A model generated the notes under the pieces. That model saw only the letters and a program-made list of their open reading frames with translations. It searched no databases and was not told where the DNA came from. A program made the translations under genes and the position numbers. Shown here piece by piece: positions 2,525-20,891 of a stretch of DNA of 21,638 bases. This stretch comes from a virus: the IMG/VR virus record IMGVR_UViG_3300042691_010165, positions 1 through 21,638 of that record. The stretch is one strand, 5' to 3'. How positions within the stretch are numbered: position 1 is the stretch's first letter; the number at the start of each line of letters is the position of its first letter.

Positions 2525-5166
2525 TAGTATGTACCTCCAGAGATTGTGCTAGTCCAGGTAGGTGAACCAGTACCACCTGAGATTAAAAATTCACCTGCAA
2601 CACCTGCAGCTGAGAACAATGTAGCTCCCGCACCAAATTGGTAAGGAACAGCTCCTGCAACACCCCCGGCAAGGTTTGTTGCTGCCGTTGCACTCGTTGC
2701 ACTCGTTGCGTTTCCTACCGTGATGCTAGCAGGATCAGTCCATGAAGGAGCAGATCCAGAAGACGTCAAGATGCGGTTAGCTGCACCAATTGTCAAGCGG
2801 TCTAGACTGGTTGACGTATTAGCGTACAACAGATCTCCAGCTGCATAGCTAGAGATGCCGGTTCCTCCGTACACTGCAGCAATCGTGCTTGCAGTCCAGG
2901 TGCCTGCTGTCAGGGTACCTACACCAGTGATGCCAGTATAAGAACCACTGATGTAGGCCGAACCCACGGTGCCAGACGTAATCTGGTTGCCGTTGATAGC
3001 AATTGGTGTGTTCGTGACCGTAGTCAGTTGACCTTGAGCATTGACAGCCAGAACGGGAACAGAAGAAGCTGAGCCGTATGTGCTTGCAGTAACCCCCGTA
3101 TTCGTAATCGAGAACTGGGTACCGGTCAGCGTCAGGCCAGTGCCTGCAGAATACACTTGGGAAGCAGATACTTGGACGAAAGTAATTGCTGTTGTGCCAA
3201 ATGTAATGACGCCAACCGTATTGCAAACGTAAGTCTCACCGGCTCCTGTATTGCCTGAAGTGACAAAGAATGCGTCGCCATTACCCAATCCGTTAGGATC
3301 CTTGATTGCATAGGTATCAGCATCCGTGGCCCTAGTCAGTACCCATGGAGTTGATCCATCACCAACAGTCGTAACAGTATAAACGCCATTCTCAAACTGG
3401 TTGGTCTGGTTGTAGACTAGGATGCGGTCACCAGGAGCAGCTGTAGGACCATCTGGCGCGAATGCAGCCAAGGTACCATTGTTAGTCAGTGTGGCTCCTA
3501 CGCCAACTCCAGGACCACCTGGTTGGTTGTAGAGGGCATTTAAGTTGCCTGTGCTATTAGGTACTTCATACTTGACCGGAGTGTGGTAGGTGATCCCAGA
3601 AGAGACCAGGGTGTCCACGTATTGCTTAGTGGCCAGCTGCAAAGCACTTACAGGGTCTTGGGTAACTGCAACAGAAGTTAGGCCACCTAAAGTTAGACTG
3701 GAACTTCCCAACGAGATAGCCGTTGTGCCAATTGTGACTGATGAGTTAGTCAGGGCAGAATTGGGGATATTTTGAAGGGTATTATTTCCACCGTCAATTG
3801 TCTTACCAGTCAGCGTCTGGGTACCGGTCAAGGTAGCGACAGTCGAATCGATAGCGATTGTTACGCCAGTCGATCCGTTAAAGCTTGTACCTTGCAAGCC
3901 TGTACCGATCGTCAAGGCATTAGTTGTATTTGCCGTGATCGTGCCAGAAGCTCCGAGAGCCACCGCAACACCGTTAAACGTGGTCGACGAATTGACCAAA
4001 GACGAGTTGCCGATGTTTGTCAGCGTATTGTCAGGTCCGTTGATTGTTTTACCGGTCAGCGTCTGGACACCCGTCAAGGTAGCGACAGTCGAGTCGATGC
4101 CGATCGTTTTTGCAACAGAACCATCAAACGTGGTGCCAGAGTTGTATTGCAAGCCAGTGCCTGCAGTCAAAGGTTGATCTGTTGCTGATGTAATTGTGCC
4201 AGAAGCTCCAAGAGCTACGTTAACACCATTAAAGGTAACCGAGCTATTGACTAAGCTAGCATTAGGAATATTTGTAAAGGTATTTGCGCCACCGTCTAGT
4301 GTCTTGCCAGTCAAGGTTGCAGGAATGTCTGCATTGACCAGTAAGCGGAAAGACGTTGGGGCTGATCCACCGGCCGTAGGTCCTGCATAGACAAAGTTAG
4401 CTGGCTGATTTGATACGATCAGGGCAGATCCCCATGAAGGGGCTCCAGATCCTCCAGACACTAATACTTGGCCAAGTGCTCCAACTGGGCTCTGCAAGAA
4501 ACCGTTTGTTCCGTTGGTGTACCAGATGCTTCCGCCAGTCAGGCCCAAAATTGATTGGCCTGTACCGCCCCTTGTCAGTGGCAATAGACCGGTCGTCTCT
4601 GTAAGATCAGCAAGATCTACAGCAGGGTGAACGTGATCGCTACGTGAAACTGTATTTGCAACACCTGGTGTTGCCGATCCAAGAGCCTGCGGGTTGCCGA
4701 CCCCAAAGTTAACGGCAAATGTACGGTCTGCTTGTAAGTTACCACCGCCAGTCAGGCCATTGCCTGCAATCACTTGGCGAGTATCTGGCACGAAGCCAGA
4801 GATATTGATGGCAGCCGTACCAACGTTGGTAATTTGACCTTGGGCGTTGACGGTCACCACTGGAATTGCAGTCGTCGAGCCGTAAGTGCCTGCCACTACA
4901 CCAGTAGGCGCAATCTTGTTAGTCGTAACCCCAGCATCAGCAATGCTCAGAGTACGATCTTGAGTTAAATTGCCACCGCCTTGTAGACCGCCACCCGTGC
5001 CAATGATACGAGAAGCCGGCACCTGAATGGTTGACTGAAGATCGATGAACGCCACCTGATAAGTGATGCCACCAATCACGCAAACCATTGTTGCGTTTGG
5101 AGTAGGATTAGGAGCTACTGGTAGATCCGTGATCCTGGTCGGTACTAGATTTGATGGGACTGTCAT
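2524..5166 (-). CDS. Large repeat-built tail fibre
   Basis: This 880-residue, Gly/Thr/Ser/Ala-rich protein is the largest fibre in the window. The first ~45 residues (TRITDLPVAPNPTPNATMVC...ITYQVAFIDLQSTIQ) look like a particle anchor and resemble the start of the virion protein at 7791-8390. Next come two copies of a GxGLxGGGNLxxDRT motif and several VxTVNAQGQITxV segments common in phage fibres. Three tandem units starting TLTGKTxxG follow (two of 85 and 82 residues, one partial), then LQLATKQYVDTLVSSG and a GDRILVYNQTNQFENGVYTV domain known from many phage fibres. It starts by ATGA overlap with the 5163-5462 gene. It is probably the main side-fibre shaft; the distal part could be extended by the smaller fibres downstream. 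Confidence 0.9.
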   Translation of the reverse strand: MTVPSNLVPTRITDLPVAPNPTPNATMVCVIGGITYQVAFIDLQSTIQVPASRIIGTGGGLQGGGNLTQDRTLSIADAGVTTNKIAPTGVVAGTYGSTTAIPVVTVNAQGQITNVGTAAINISGFVPDTRQVIAGNGLTGGGNLQADRTFAVNFGVGNPQALGSATPGVANTVSRSDHVHPAVDLADLTETTGLLPLTRGGTGQSILGLTGGSIWYTNGTNGFLQSPVGALGQVLVSGGSGAPSWGSALIVSNQPANFVYAGPTAGGSAPTSFRLLVNADIPATLTGKTLDGGANTFTNIPNASLVNSSVTFNGVNVALGASGTITSATDQPLTAGTGLQYNSGTTFDGSVAKTIGIDSTVATLTGVQTLTGKTINGPDNTLTNIGNSSLVNSSTTFNGVAVALGASGTITANTTNALTIGTGLQGTSFNGSTGVTIAIDSTVATLTGTQTLTGKTIDGGNNTLQNIPNSALTNSSVTIGTTAISLGSSSLTLGGLTSVAVTQDPVSALQLATKQYVDTLVSSGITYHTPVKYEVPNSTGNLNALYNQPGGPGVGVGATLTNNGTLAAFAPDGPTAAPGDRILVYNQTNQFENGVYTVTTVGDGSTPWVLTRATDADTYAIKDPNGLGNGDAFFVTSGNTGAGETYVCNTVGVITFGTTAITFVQVSASQVYSAGTGLTLTGTQFSITNTGVTASTYGSASSVPVLAVNAQGQLTTVTNTPIAINGNQITSGTVGSAYISGSYTGITGVGTLTAGTWTASTIAAVYGGTGISSYAAGDLLYANTSTSLDRLTIGAANRILTSSGSAPSWTDPASITVGNATSATSATAATNLAGGVAGAVPYQFGAGATLFSAAGVAGEFLISGGTGSPTWTSTISGGTY
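3720..4317 (-). repeat. Tandem 85/82-codon repeats in large fibre gene
   Basis: Repeat units begin at 4317, 4062 and 3816 on the minus strand, each coding TLTGKTxxGxxNTxxNIxNxxLxNSS. The first two are 255 and 246 bp long and the third is partial, ending near 3720. Neighbouring units keep long stretches of near-identical DNA, for example the 10-mer CAGCGTCTGG at 3811 and 4057 (plus-strand reading). This points to fairly recent duplication and gives a substrate for recombination that could change shaft length. Confidence 0.85.
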
Positions 5167-12628: not shown

Positions 12629-13048
12629 TTAGATGAATGCCCTGATCGTGGTCGGATCTGCCGTAACCTTGCCGATAATGTCAAGGTCATTGAAAATCAC
12701 GAATTCGATCTCCTCGTCGCCGGACTTTACGGTCCAACGATCACCGCCGTATTTAGGGGTACGGACGAAGTCCCCAACGTTACACCATGAACCCTCTGGC
12801 CAGGACTCCATGTTGTTTCGATTCTTGTAAGCCAGCGGACCAATGGCGGCTACCTTAGCCACCTGGGTGTTACTAGCTTCTGTTTTACGTGCTTCTTCAG
12901 GCAGGTAAATACCGCCTTTAGTTTGGCTCTTGGCGCGACGAATTTGCACCATCACACGGCTGCCAAATGGAATAATGCCAGCATCAACCTCAGGAAATGC
13001 ATCCTCAGTTGAATCGTAGGCCATTGAAATTGGATTGTCTAGTAGCAT
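12629..13048 (-). CDS. groES: GroES-like co-chaperonin (Cpn10)
   Basis: Residues 24-128 follow the Cpn10 pattern. GIIPFGSRVMVQIRRAKSQT matches the first beta strands, GGIYLPEEA (45-53) the GroEL-binding mobile loop with hydrophobic tripeptide Ile-Tyr-Leu, and TQVAKVAAIGP the central strand. WCNVGDFVRTPKYGGDRWTV stands for the VGDxVlfxKYaG part, and FVIFNDLDIIGKV for the C-terminal EdDIlavi strand. Phage co-chaperonins such as T4 gp31 replace host GroES on the host GroEL to fold the capsid protein, and this gene lies directly upstream of the scaffold and close to the capsid. ATG 13048 has GGAG seven bases upstream and gives 139 residues, longer than the usual ~97 through an N-terminal tail and an insert near residues 73-86. 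The frame is open upstream of this ATG but without a better site. Confidence 0.88.
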   Translation of the reverse strand: MLLDNPISMAYDSTEDAFPEVDAGIIPFGSRVMVQIRRAKSQTKGGIYLPEEARKTEASNTQVAKVAAIGPLAYKNRNNMESWPEGSWCNVGDFVRTPKYGGDRWTVKSGDEEIEFVIFNDLDIIGKVTADPTTIRAFI

Positions 13049-13070
13049 TCGCTTCTCCGTATGCTGTTGG

Positions 13071-13271
13071 TTAAAGTTCAGAATCTCGTTTGTCTTGATC
13101 GCGCAAAAGCTGATCAATTAGCTGTTTGGCATAGTCAAGGCCTGCATATACACCTTGACGATAGCCGTATTCATAGCCAATGTCTTTTCCTTCTCCGGGC
13201 TTGTTAGCGGCAAGCTCATGCGCTAGCCGATCTTTTTCAGCCTGGATTTTTGCGAAGACTTTTTCAAGCAT
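13071..13271 (-). CDS. Small helical protein of unknown function
   Basis: This 66-residue protein begins MLEKVFAKIQAEKDRLAHEL and has GKDIGYEYGYRQGVYAGLDYAK, then a charged helix to the end (QLIDQLLRDQDKRDSEL). The GYxYGxxxGxYxGLxxAK pattern recurs in small proteins between portal and capsid genes of aquatic phages, as far as I recall, with no known function. Its ATG overlaps the preceding stop by one base (TAATG) and the ribosome site is weak, so translation is probably coupled. Short helices suggest a partner in assembly, but nothing in the sequence names one. Confidence 0.75.
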   Translation of the reverse strand: MLEKVFAKIQAEKDRLAHELAANKPGEGKDIGYEYGYRQGVYAGLDYAKQLIDQLLRDQDKRDSEL

Positions 13272-18158: not shown

Positions 18159-18203
18159 CTAAGTGAGCGCATTGTGCCTCAAACAATCAACCAAGGAGCA
18201 AGT

Positions 18204-18650
18204 ATGTCACGTCCTGTAGAAGCATCATCGGCACTCGACTTAGACACCATCAAGATTCTCTTGTGGGCCAGTGAGTATGGATCAGGCCATCCCAACATCA
18301 GCAGACTCTATGACCGCGAAGCAGAGGACGGGCTGCCCATCAGCCGTGGCACCTTCTTCAACGCCATCAAGGGTCGCAAGGTCACGAACCACGTGATCGC
18401 AGCTATTGACGAACTGATCGCCATCCGTGGCTGGCAGTCCCAGTACCTAGATCATTGCCGAGAAGAACACAAGCGCCGCGTCGTTAAGGCCTTCGAAAGC
18501 CCCATGTCTTACTGCTCTGTGTGCGGTCACGCTTGCCCTAATTGCGGAGGTCCAAGGACCGAGAAGCGGCGCAAGGCTGTCAAGGATTACCTGAAGCAAG
18601 ACCCGTTAGACCTTGGCTGCAAGCTGCGAGAAGCTACGCAAGACGACTAA
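18204..18650 (+). CDS. Putative HTH plus zinc-knuckle DNA-binding protein (divergent regulator candidate)
   Basis: This is the only plus-strand gene in the window; the product has 148 residues. ATG 18204 has AAGGAG five bases upstream; an in-frame GTG at 18174 has none. Residues 11-75 are helical (DLDTIKILLWASEYGSGHPN ... ISRGTFFNAIKGRKVTNHVI), where ISRGTFFNAIKGRK resembles a recognition helix of a helix-turn-helix. Residues 104-114 read CSVCGHACPNC, a compact four-cysteine zinc knuckle, followed by a basic helix (GPRTEKRRKAVKDYLKQD). The host-type promoter suggests early expression. Position opposite the late operon, with repeats between, suggests it may bind the control region and govern late transcription. 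Family not recognised; alternatives are a replication or packaging accessory protein. Confidence 0.8.
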   Translation: MSRPVEASSALDLDTIKILLWASEYGSGHPNISRLYDREAEDGLPISRGTFFNAIKGRKVTNHVIAAIDELIAIRGWQSQYLDHCREEHKRRVVKAFESPMSYCSVCGHACPNCGGPRTEKRRKAVKDYLKQDPLDLGCKLREATQDD

Positions 18651-18668: not shown

Positions 18669-18693
18669 AAAAAAGAGGGCCTCTAGGGCCCTC
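18669..18693 (-). terminator. Intrinsic terminator ending the leftward accessory operon
   Basis: On the minus strand GAGGGCC, loop CTAGA and GGCCCTC form a seven-pair GC stem followed by TTTTTT. It stops leftward transcripts 50 bases after the last accessory gene and before they run antisense into the plus-strand gene. On the plus strand the same stem lacks a uridine run, so it would serve that gene poorly. Confidence 0.85.
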
Positions 18694-19231: not shown

Positions 19232-19470
19232 CAAAAGTTCCTCCGGTAGAACTCGTCTAAGCACTCCTCGAAGTTCTTAAACTGTCCGCCTTCGCCACCG
19301 TCGCGCTCGCCGATCCACACAGTCCCGTCATCGAGCTGCGTGATTCGGTAGGCGCCCACCACGACCGAAGACTTGCGGTAGATCAGCTCTTGCAGCTGAC
19401 TGCGGTTTACCACCACAAAATCCTCGGTCGCGTTTGGCTCAGTCAATTTTTCAACTTTGCTGCCGTTCAT
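19231..19470 (-). CDS. Small hypothetical protein
   Basis: This 79-residue product begins MNGSKVEKLTEPNATEDFVV. It contains NRSQLQELIYRKSSVVVGAY, RITQLDDGTVWIGERDGGEG and a charged end FKNFEECLDEFYRRNF. The alternation of beta strands and the DDGTVWIGERDGEGG turn suggests a compact alpha/beta domain. It has AAGGAG before its ATG, overlaps the preceding gene by ATGA and the next by TGATG. I do not recognise a family; phage accessory operons often carry such host-modifying small proteins. Confidence 0.75.
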   Translation of the reverse strand: MNGSKVEKLTEPNATEDFVVVNRSQLQELIYRKSSVVVGAYRITQLDDGTVWIGERDGGEGGQFKNFEECLDEFYRRNF

Positions 19471-19658
19471 GGCTGCTCCTTGGCCTGCCTCTCGACTTCT
19501 AGCATGGCGTCGGCAAACTTAAAGGCATCGCGGCAGGTCTCCCAAAGGTACCCATTACCGTGCACCTGGATCAGGGCTTGCATGGCCTTCGCTGCGTAAT
19601 AACGCCGTGCAGAGACCATCTCTACCACCGCCCCGTCTTCATATTCCTTCTGAGTCAT
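19467..19658 (-). CDS. Small hypothetical helical protein
   Basis: This 63-residue product reads MTQKEYEDGAVVEMVSARRY, YAAKAMQALIQVHGNGYLWE, TCRDAFKFADAMLEVERQAK and EQP. The pattern suggests two or three helices without a membrane segment. AAAGGAATGCT precedes the ATG, and both ends overlap neighbours by four bases (ATGA). The helix ending ADAMLEVERQAKE resembles the end of small phage proteins that share the same operon in aquatic phages, as far as I recall. No function can be given. Confidence 0.75.
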   Translation of the reverse strand: MTQKEYEDGAVVEMVSARRYYAAKAMQALIQVHGNGYLWETCRDAFKFADAMLEVERQAKEQP

Positions 19659-19822
19659 AGCATTCCTTTCTCGCGCATCTTGCGCTGTATTTGCTCTACG
19701 GCTTGTTGCTGGCCTGCCTTGAGCAAGGACAGAGCCACTTCGACCAAGATCGGTCTAATCTTCTTCAGCTGCTTCTCAACTAGCAGCTCAGCTACCTTCT
19801 CGAGGCGTTCTTTCTCAGTCAT
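19655..19822 (-). CDS. 55-residue helical protein
   Basis: From ATG 19822 the frame reads MTEKERLEKVAELLVEKQLK, KIRPILVEVALSLLKAGQQQ, AVEQIQRKMREKGML and ends with TGA overlapping the next ATG (ATGA). GAGGACC lies five bases before the start and overlaps the stop of the secreted Cys-rich gene. The product is a single long amphipathic, highly charged helix pair, likely oligomeric. No family is recognised. Tight coupling on both sides makes it a real gene despite its size. Confidence 0.7.
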   Translation of the reverse strand: MTEKERLEKVAELLVEKQLKKIRPILVEVALSLLKAGQQQAVEQIQRKMREKGML

Positions 19823-19828
19823 AGGTCC

Positions 19829-19990
19829 TCAGATACAGTTAGTGCTGCAATTATTCCCTACGCAGCAGGTCGTACAGACGATCAACCGGCCGTTAGGTCC
19901 TGGGTTCGTGGTCACCACACAAGCTGCGTAAGCAGCAGACGCCACAACGGTTAGATACACGGCCAACAGGCCAGACAAGACTCTCTTCAT
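19829..19990 (-). CDS. Secreted six-cysteine micro-protein
   Basis: From ATG 19990, with AAGGAG nine bases upstream, the 53-residue frame opens with a clear signal peptide (MKRVLSGLLAVYLTVVASAAYA). An AYA motif gives a predicted signal peptidase I cut before Ala23. The mature ~31 residues hold six cysteines at 24, 39, 42, 43, 48 and 52 (LIVCTTCCVGNNCSTNCI). The Cys24 site could alternatively be lipidated, but Tyr at -3 is a poor lipobox. It lies between a single-helix membrane protein and a helical protein, so it may act in the envelope or periplasm, for example in superinfection exclusion or lysis. I recall short phage proteins with a similar CTTCC motif but no function. Confidence 0.75.
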   Translation of the reverse strand: MKRVLSGLLAVYLTVVASAAYAACVVTTNPGPNGRLIVCTTCCVGNNCSTNCI

Positions 19991-19993
19991 GCT

Positions 19994-20167
19994 TCACTCC
20001 TTCGGTGGAAAGTTAATAAACACACACTCATTTAGATGCCGCTTACCGTAGGCATCCACATACGACTCCCCGCAGCCCGCCATCCACTCGATGGTGATGA
20101 CTGCAAGGCCTGCTCCAAAGATCACCATGGTCACAAACCCAATGATCCACTCAAATACCTTCTTCAT
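19994..20167 (-). CDS. Single-helix membrane protein
   Basis: This 57-residue protein starts at ATG 20167 with GGGAGG seven bases upstream; the frame upstream of it has only a TTG. MKKVFEWIIGFVTMVIFGAG then LAVITIEWMAG gives one transmembrane helix at about residues 6-27. The rest (CGESYVDAYGKRHLNEC, then VFINFPPKE) is a short tail with two cysteines that could form a disulfide if it faces the periplasm. A positive N-terminus favours N-in topology. Holin, anti-holin or envelope-modifying roles are possible, but no endolysin is nearby in the window. It follows the preceding gene by TAAGATG. Confidence 0.75.
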   Translation of the reverse strand: MKKVFEWIIGFVTMVIFGAGLAVITIEWMAGCGESYVDAYGKRHLNECVFINFPPKE

Positions 20168-20168
20168 C

Positions 20169-20891
20169 TTAAGACCTCCCAAATAATCCGTTGAGTAAGT
20201 ACTTCAGCTCTGATACCCCGCCATTGCAGTAATGCATATTCTGGTGCTTCCTGTACTTGCTATGAACCCCATGATTGATGAACTTAGTCATGAGCACCGT
20301 GTGGTCCTTGTGCAGCGTATGGTGGCTCAGGGCATGCTCGCCAGTCACAAAGGTAAAGTCCACGTTTGGCTGGTGCTGCCTGATGCAGTCGACCTGGGCG
20401 CCGTTCAGTCCGATCACAAGGCACGTGCCCTTGCTAGCTGCCTTCTTCTTTCTGATGGTCAGGTTCTCAAGCTCATCTAGCCAACCTGTATTGACCACCG
20501 GCTCCTTAATCTCGATCTTGTGAGAGTCCTCGATCTTCGTCTGGATCTTCTCCATGACACGCTCGGTGATAGCGTCGACGAGCAGCTCAAAGAGGTCTCC
20601 TATGGTATCGACCTTCTTGACAGGCTCTGGGGGCGGTGGTTCAGGTGCCACGAACACAGGCTCAGGTGGCACTGCGCTGCGTATCTTCTCTGCAGCATCA
20701 CGTGCAGCCTGAATCATGGCCTTGTAGTTAAAGGTCCGCTGGTCGTTGATGACGACCCTGCGGTTGGTGGGCAACACGATCTGACCTTGCCGCATCAATT
20801 CCTTGCTAGACAGCCGTGGCTTCTCAACAGCCACAGCGATCATGCCTTCAAGGACCATGTCCTTCTCGTCACGCGTCCAGACTATTCTCAT
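20169..20891 (-). CDS. Multi-domain accessory protein with DUF2325-like C-terminus
   Basis: This 240-residue product has three parts. Residues 1-70 (WTRDEKDMVLEGMIAVAVEK, LSSKELMRQGQIVLPTNRRV) are helical and may form a DNA-binding fold. Residues 71-95 are a Pro-rich linker (VPPEPVFVAPEPPPPEPVKK), then a helical stretch (FELLVDAITERVMEKIQTKI). Residues 156-236 read TCLVIGLNGAQVDCIRQHQP, THVxMTK-like HTVLMTKFINHGVHSKYRKH and YCNGGVSELKYLLNGLF, a pattern of a small Rossmann-like domain of the DUF2325 type as I remember it. It overlaps the upstream gene by ATGA. It is possibly a regulator or replication accessory protein. The domain call is tentative. Confidence 0.8.
   Translation of the reverse strand: MRIVWTRDEKDMVLEGMIAVAVEKPRLSSKELMRQGQIVLPTNRRVVINDQRTFNYKAMIQAARDAAEKIRSAVPPEPVFVAPEPPPPEPVKKVDTIGDLFELLVDAITERVMEKIQTKIEDSHKIEIKEPVVNTGWLDELENLTIRKKKAASKGTCLVIGLNGAQVDCIRQHQPNVDFTFVTGEHALSHHTLHKDHTVLMTKFINHGVHSKYRKHQNMHYCNGGVSELKYLLNGLFGRS

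Follow-up and report, generated by a model that had tools for sequence, protein, structure and literature searches.

Llp of phage T5, Cor of the T1-like phages, and Rtp45 of phage Rtp are small phage-encoded proteins that are exported to the envelope of the host cell. Llp is a disulfide-containing protein that jams FhuA from below, in the periplasm (PMC9586334), and Rtp45, which has a single disulfide and a mass of ∼6 kDa, binds LptD in part through strand addition (PMC12685063). Both studies report inaccurate AlphaFold predictions for small phage proteins of this kind. The gene described here codes for a protein that is likewise small and phage-encoded and carries a signal for export to the envelope. 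It was detected in a 21,638-nucleotide stretch of viral DNA (IMG/VR record IMGVR_UViG_3300042691_010165, analyzed over its full length and referred to below as the window) and belongs to a family of conserved microproteins that carry export signals and are restricted to phages; the family is widespread and has not been described before.

Identification of the gene

An earlier note on this DNA had described a 53-residue gene with a signal peptide, an AYA cleavage motif, and six cysteines in 31 mature residues, and all these features are present at positions 19829 to 19990 (Table 1). The coding strand, absent from that note, is the minus strand; the plus-strand reading of the same positions is interrupted by a stop codon and yields no such protein. 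The gene starts 3 nt past the stop codon of an upstream gene for a small membrane protein, and the next gene follows 6 nt downstream. Shine-Dalgarno-like motifs were found for 156 of the 157 open reading frames (ORFs) tallied, a set that includes one unrelated ORF.

The mature part of the protein is strongly conserved at the amino acid level. In the clade of five distinct phages to which the window belongs, it differs from the window sequence by 11 to 14 synonymous and 0 to 1 nonsynonymous codons, while the signal peptide is free to vary. A comparison of 413 pairs of relatives gave median dN/dS ratios of 0.127 (whole gene), 0.207 (signal peptide), and 0.095 (mature part). Because of these ratios and the bias toward synonymous changes, a chance ORF is rejected: the locus is a genuine phage gene.

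The expectation that such a protein would be overlooked by annotation was borne out as well, as it matches no curated family and an antisense ORF is annotated in its place in the GenBank genomes that contain it. In records MW202462 and MW202544 (locus L104, positions 19694 to 19936, minus strand), the deposited hypothetical protein lies antisense to the real microprotein gene. This choice of frame was rejected, as it is the sense frame that has the signal peptide, the ribosome-binding site, and the signs of selection; the antisense frame most likely stays open as a by-product of the cysteine codons.

Table 1. Features of the six-cysteine locus and its surroundings in the window
Feature	Positions	Strand	Remarks
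Six-cysteine microprotein gene (predicted to be secreted)	19829..19990	-	53 aa + stop; sequence MKRVLSGLLAVYLTVVASAAYAACVVTTNPGPNGRLIVCTTCCVGNNCSTNCI
Ribosome-binding site AAGGAG of the six-cysteine gene	19997..20002	-	Within the end of the upstream gene
Predicted signal peptide, residues 1-22	19925..19990	-	MKRVLSGLLAVYLTVVASAAYA; signal peptidase I type, no strict lipobox
Mature peptide, residues 23-53	19832..19924	-	31 aa, ACVVTTNPGPNGRLIVCTTCCVGNNCSTNCI; predicted three-stranded antiparallel sheet
Upstream small membrane protein	19994..20167	-	57 aa from MKK start; one TM segment and GCGExYxDxxGxxHxNxC tail
Upstream gene of the same run	20169..20891	-	240 aa; from ORF list
Next gene downstream	19655..19822	-	55 aa; from ORF list; no significant Pfam or PHROGs match
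Small gene	19467..19658	-	63 aa; weak phrog_2201 match (E = 7e-4)
Probable intrinsic terminator at the end of the small-gene operon	18675..18693	-	GAGGGCCCTAGAGGCCCTC followed by six T; fold z = -2.5

Family size and distribution

A single-sequence search of IMG/VR retrieved 24 loci, and three profile-type scans of the same database yielded at least 491, at least 438, and at least 507 confirmed relatives. Among 84,980 bacterial and archaeal species, there was one match, in a Runella metagenome-assembled genome (locus L102, positions 1 to 1100), where the gene sits at the contig end next to phage-type neighbors that are followed by Bacteroidota genes. This contig, the sole genome match, is likely a chimeric join, and a bacterial origin of the family was rejected. 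The plasmids searched contained no family member. In GenBank phage records, the gene was found only in the two near-identical Manatee Spring genomes (MW202462 and MW202544), and other family members used as queries against the phage collection retrieved nothing beyond these records.

Comparisons with Pfam, PHROGs, NCBIfam, and PADLOC gave no credible match; the stray best matches are weak, involve few members, and are mutually unrelated. A sequence search of the PDB up to an E-value of 10 found no match, and a literature search found no publication describing the family. One relative in the BFVD collection, the 49-residue protein A0A6J5M8Q5 (UniProt) from an uncultured Caudovirales phage, shares 48% identity with the window protein and has a Foldseek TM-score of 0.88 to its model; it is evidently a family member, and its E-value is merely 0.01 because the chain is short. 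Its name, “Lipoprotein,” implies lipidation, which is contradicted by the family-wide analysis (see below).

Cysteine layout and composition

Conservation of the cysteines in homologs had been set beforehand as the test on which the proposal could fall, and all six are kept in each of the 156 distinct relatives. The entire layout, X-C-x13/14-C-x2-CC-x4/5-C-x3-C-[F/Y/I/M]-stop, is present in 156 of the 156 distinct proteins examined; in the window protein, the cysteines occupy mature positions 2, 17, 20, 21, 26, and 30. The chain ends one residue past the final cysteine, with Phe in 74, Tyr in 72, Ile in 9, and Met in 1 of the 156 distinct members. The number of mature cysteines is always even, six (87 distinct mature forms) or eight (38 forms). 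The two extra cysteines, located between the first and the second, occur together in 53 proteins of one subfamily and singly in none. The mature part is rich in Thr (23.5%), Cys (21.8%), Asn (11.8%), and Tyr (8.3%), and its net charge is 0 or +1 in 123 of 125 mature forms.

A diverged tandem paralog of the microprotein, MTYLLAISLSLPPPDTLEKCFWRHYCTLEKCVSCSICCYESSCMKSCF, is encoded at locus L170 (positions 2856 to 3002, plus strand). It retains all eight cysteines and the terminal Phe, while nearly everything else is altered and the signal peptide is degenerate.

Export signal

The signal peptide ends in V/A-Y/W-A in nearly all family members, and the AxA rule of signal peptidase I is satisfied in 154 of 156 distinct relatives. 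By these sequence rules, the microprotein would be exported. A strict lipobox was found in none of the 156 relatives, whereas a permissive PROSITE-type lipobox pattern occurs in 32 of them; in 65 of the 156, the residue preceding the first cysteine is not Gly, Ala, or Ser and is therefore excluded by the lipobox rules. Lipoprotein identity was rejected, as the strict rule fails for every member examined.

Predicted fold and disulfides

The AlphaFold2 model of the mature window peptide, built with 66 family sequences, has a pLDDT of 91.5 and strands at positions 2 to 8, 14 to 22, and 25 to 30; that of an eight-cysteine homolog has a pLDDT of 89.3 and strands at positions 2 to 9, 12 to 21, and 24 to 29. 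The window model consists of one sheet of three strands alone and hence has no second layer. When the register is derived from the strand ends, facing positions sum to 22 and 47 in the window peptide and to 21 and 45 in its eight-cysteine relative, and every cysteine is paired across strands in both models, although AlphaFold2 may itself have exploited the cysteine pattern. The disulfides predicted from this register would be C2-C20, C17-C30, and C21-C26 (mature numbering) in the window peptide and 2-19, 16-29, 20-25, and 8-13 in the eight-cysteine relative. Cysteines 8 and 13 of the latter are the pair gained together, and they face each other in the predicted hairpin. In typical numbering, the modeled register would line one face with Thr 4/17 and 6/15 and the opposite face with Thr 3/18/27.

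Foldseek searches detected no significant structural relative. The best PDB fold matches cover local meanders within lipocalins, DNA polymerases, and lectins (E > 0.3, VIA Z ≤3.6), which were judged uninformative. With a length of 30 residues, the statistics of such searches are weak and therefore say little about the novelty of the fold.

Phage and genomic neighborhoods

The window comes from a tailed phage, in which the terminase, portal, major head protein, and GroES-like co-chaperonin were recognized. The co-chaperonin (phrog_3188; positions 12629 to 13075, minus strand) is encoded among the structural genes, and Caulobacter phage RW likewise has a gene annotated as GroES. The window terminase and portal share 57% amino acid identity with those of Caulobacter phage RW and its relatives, the nearest cultured phages; this similarity, the sole basis for assigning a host type, makes a Gram-negative host likely. 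The 14-kb stretch of Caulobacter phage RW with matching genes contains no small exported Cys-rich ORF of the six-cysteine type.

The small-gene operon of the window stops at its own strong terminator-like hairpin, apart from the structural genes. A candidate gene convergent with this operon (positions 18174 to 18650, plus strand) encodes a zinc-finger-like motif, CSVCGHACPNCGG, and has no PHROGs match. Other phages of the clade likewise encode a member of the 63-residue protein family (Table 1) just downstream of the six-cysteine gene. Of the 190 distinct six-cysteine loci, 143 have a recombination or replication gene on the same strand within 3 kb. The gene directly upstream codes for an SSB-like protein in 70 of the 190 loci (54 matching a PHROGs SSB-type family and 16 of a second family recognized by its SSB-like acidic tip) and for a DUF968 protein in 13; genes for NinB, Rad52/RecT-like, ERF, HTH_39, PDDEXK, and DUF1376 proteins are also frequent nearby. 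From this gene order, namely the operon position and the separate terminator, early or middle expression would be expected.

All 21 large contigs carry one copy each of the six-cysteine gene, and a tyrosine integrase was found in none of them. The terminases that could be compared form at least four groups, between which BLAST detects no similarity (the window; L104 with L335; L330; and L333); this comparison covers five sequences, as L331, L332, and L334 of the initial eight were dropped because they did not represent the terminase reading frame. Given these unrelated terminases, transfer of the gene from one phage lineage to another is probable.

The membrane protein encoded directly upstream of the six-cysteine gene has two invariant cysteines in its tail, which is probably periplasmic. 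The adjacency in an accessory operon described in the earlier note holds in all five distinct phages of the window clade. As a fixed pair, the two genes fared differently: the membrane protein has 197 IMG/VR relatives of its own, mostly without the six-cysteine gene, which is present at only 4 of the 79 loci of this family examined (L251 to L329). Obligate pairing is thereby refuted as a general rule, and the membrane protein, for which the family members scanned gave no significant match to PHROGs or Pfam, represents a second unnamed phage envelope family rather than a dedicated partner. At one of its loci (L279), a different candidate exported Cys-rich microprotein, MKKALAVLLLTVSFGAVAACPPYSPYGCKQGMNGKMICGCGIR, is encoded ∼640 nt upstream of the membrane protein gene.

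Possible functions

Our tentative preference, held at somewhat less than even confidence, is that an early periplasmic peptide modifies the envelope in the manner of superinfection exclusion. The support counted for this role consists of the purifying selection, the strict layout, the export motif, the even number of cysteines, the confident AlphaFold2 models, the restriction to phages, and the genomic context. Judging by gene position, the protein would be made early or in mid-infection, together with recombination and accessory proteins and apart from those of the virion. Sec export and cleavage by signal peptidase I, as read from the sequence rules, would release a soluble peptide of 29 to 31 residues into a Gram-negative periplasm. 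There, as modeled, it would fold into a single antiparallel sheet of three strands, stapled from strand to strand by three disulfides, or by four in one subfamily. The faces of this sheet would be rich in Thr and Asn and its two edge strands exposed, and the chain always ends in a hydrophobic residue (Phe, Tyr, Ile, or Met). The least certain steps come last: the peptide may bind a conserved component of the outer envelope, for instance by pairing an edge strand with a protein of outer membrane assembly or transport, and the altered surface of the infected cell would then most likely block adsorption or DNA entry of further phages. The mode would be like that of superinfection-exclusion lipoproteins, but with a soluble, nonlipidated, disulfide-locked ligand.

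Receptor-blocking proteins are expected to track the receptor of each particular phage. The mature sequence is alike across unrelated phages, and a conserved nonreceptor target in the envelope therefore fits as well or better. The same conservation despite unrelated terminases, suggestive of one conserved target, would also suit a different role, in which the peptide blocks or diverts a conserved host machine of the periplasm for the benefit of replication or lysis timing and superinfection plays no role. The candidates include a protease or sigma-E sensor, the assembly of lipopolysaccharide or outer membrane proteins, and Dsb oxidation. As the chain stops exactly one residue past the last cysteine in all 156 members, the free C-terminal Phe, Tyr, or Ile could be bound by a PDZ-type protease of the periplasm (DegS or DegP, for example); the C-terminal motif N/T/S-C-F/Y, however, is unlike the YxF motif that DegS recognizes. 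We put this role at about one chance in four. An equally speculative extension of the envelope reading is that the family represents a new fold-level class of effectors, 30-residue single-layer cystine-ladder sheets with Thr-lined faces, which hit one universal part of the envelope that known phage proteins do not target; the near-unchanged sharing across unrelated phage backbones would then follow from the universality of that part.

The remaining explanations appear less probable. Stacking of the single-layer sheet, with its two free edges, into fibers or a coat, either on the cell or within its periplasm, would suit both the Thr/Asn/Tyr-rich composition and the modeled fold, but the AlphaFold2 model is a monomer, the sequence has no repeat structure, and small disulfide-locked sheets may be monomeric, which makes self-assembly improbable. 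Still more doubtful is a secreted peptide that acts outside the infected cell as a bacteriocin-like killer or as a signal between infected cells: its export signal and compact disulfide-rich design would fit, but neither a route across the outer membrane nor an immunity gene was seen, and the adjacent membrane protein is unlinked beyond the window clade. The near-neutral charge, unlike that of cationic lytic peptides, also speaks against a toxin that lyses membranes. A classic superinfection-exclusion or spanin-type outer membrane lipoprotein, as suggested by the name of A0A6J5M8Q5 and by the permissive pattern in 32 of 156 relatives, is very unlikely in view of the missing strict lipobox, the 154 of 156 fits to signal peptidase I, and the residues other than Gly, Ala, or Ser before the cysteine in 65 members. 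Least probable of all is metallothionein-like metal binding by the cysteines in place of disulfides; all members do have a Cys-rich CxxCC motif, but the protein would be exported to an oxidizing compartment, its cysteines are always even in number, and two of them were gained jointly at facing positions.

Whatever its role, the gene is borne under strong selection by hundreds of aquatic environmental phages and yet is absent from the family libraries used here. The family thus serves as a warning that exported microproteins of near 50 residues get lost in phage annotation. A sheet of 30 residues locked by disulfides is accessible to chemical synthesis, which allows a direct search for its target; if a universal envelope component is bound, a weak point exploited by many phages would be named.

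Comparison with known systems

Several known classes of small exported proteins share some features with the six-cysteine family. The Phe or Tyr at the C terminus of 146 of 156 members is reminiscent of the beta-signal of outer membrane proteins, in which a C-terminal aromatic residue is combined with alternating hydrophobic ones, yet the residues two and four positions ahead of it are almost all Asn, Thr, Ser, or Gln. The lipobox that characterizes Rz1-type spanins and bacterial lipoproteins is absent in its strict form from all 156 relatives. The phage P1 Sim protein, a superinfection factor with a cleaved signal peptide, is much larger.

The cysteine order C-C-CC-C-C in a secreted peptide of 30 residues, found in 156 of 156 members, is knottin-like. 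Inhibitor cystine knots pair C1-C4, C2-C5, and C3-C6, whereas the modeled register of the six-cysteine peptide implies C1-C3, C2-C6, and C4-C5, which would give a flat ladder; in addition, its two-residue C2-C3 loop is unusually short. Theta-defensin and tachyplesin, which are antimicrobial beta-sheet peptides, are strongly cationic two-stranded hairpins with a cystine ladder. Like the modeled peptide, they have a small antiparallel sheet stapled by cross-strand disulfides, but the six-cysteine peptide would have three strands, and its net charge of 0 to +1 sets it apart from these strongly charged molecules.

The closest precedents for the proposed mode of action are the superinfection-exclusion proteins. 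No sequence or fold match to Llp, Cor, or Rtp45 was found, with the weak statistics that 30-residue models give. These three proteins are lipidated and have masses of ∼6 to 7 kDa, whereas the six-cysteine protein is of the signal peptidase I type, with a mature mass of ∼3 kDa and three or four predicted disulfides. As a strict lipobox is lacking in all 156 relatives, the family falls outside the superinfection-exclusion lipoproteins. Llp and Rtp45 nonetheless combine a disulfide with periplasmic action on outer membrane proteins (PMC9586334, PMC12685063), and, by analogy, a soluble sheet whose edge strands are open could act as they do.
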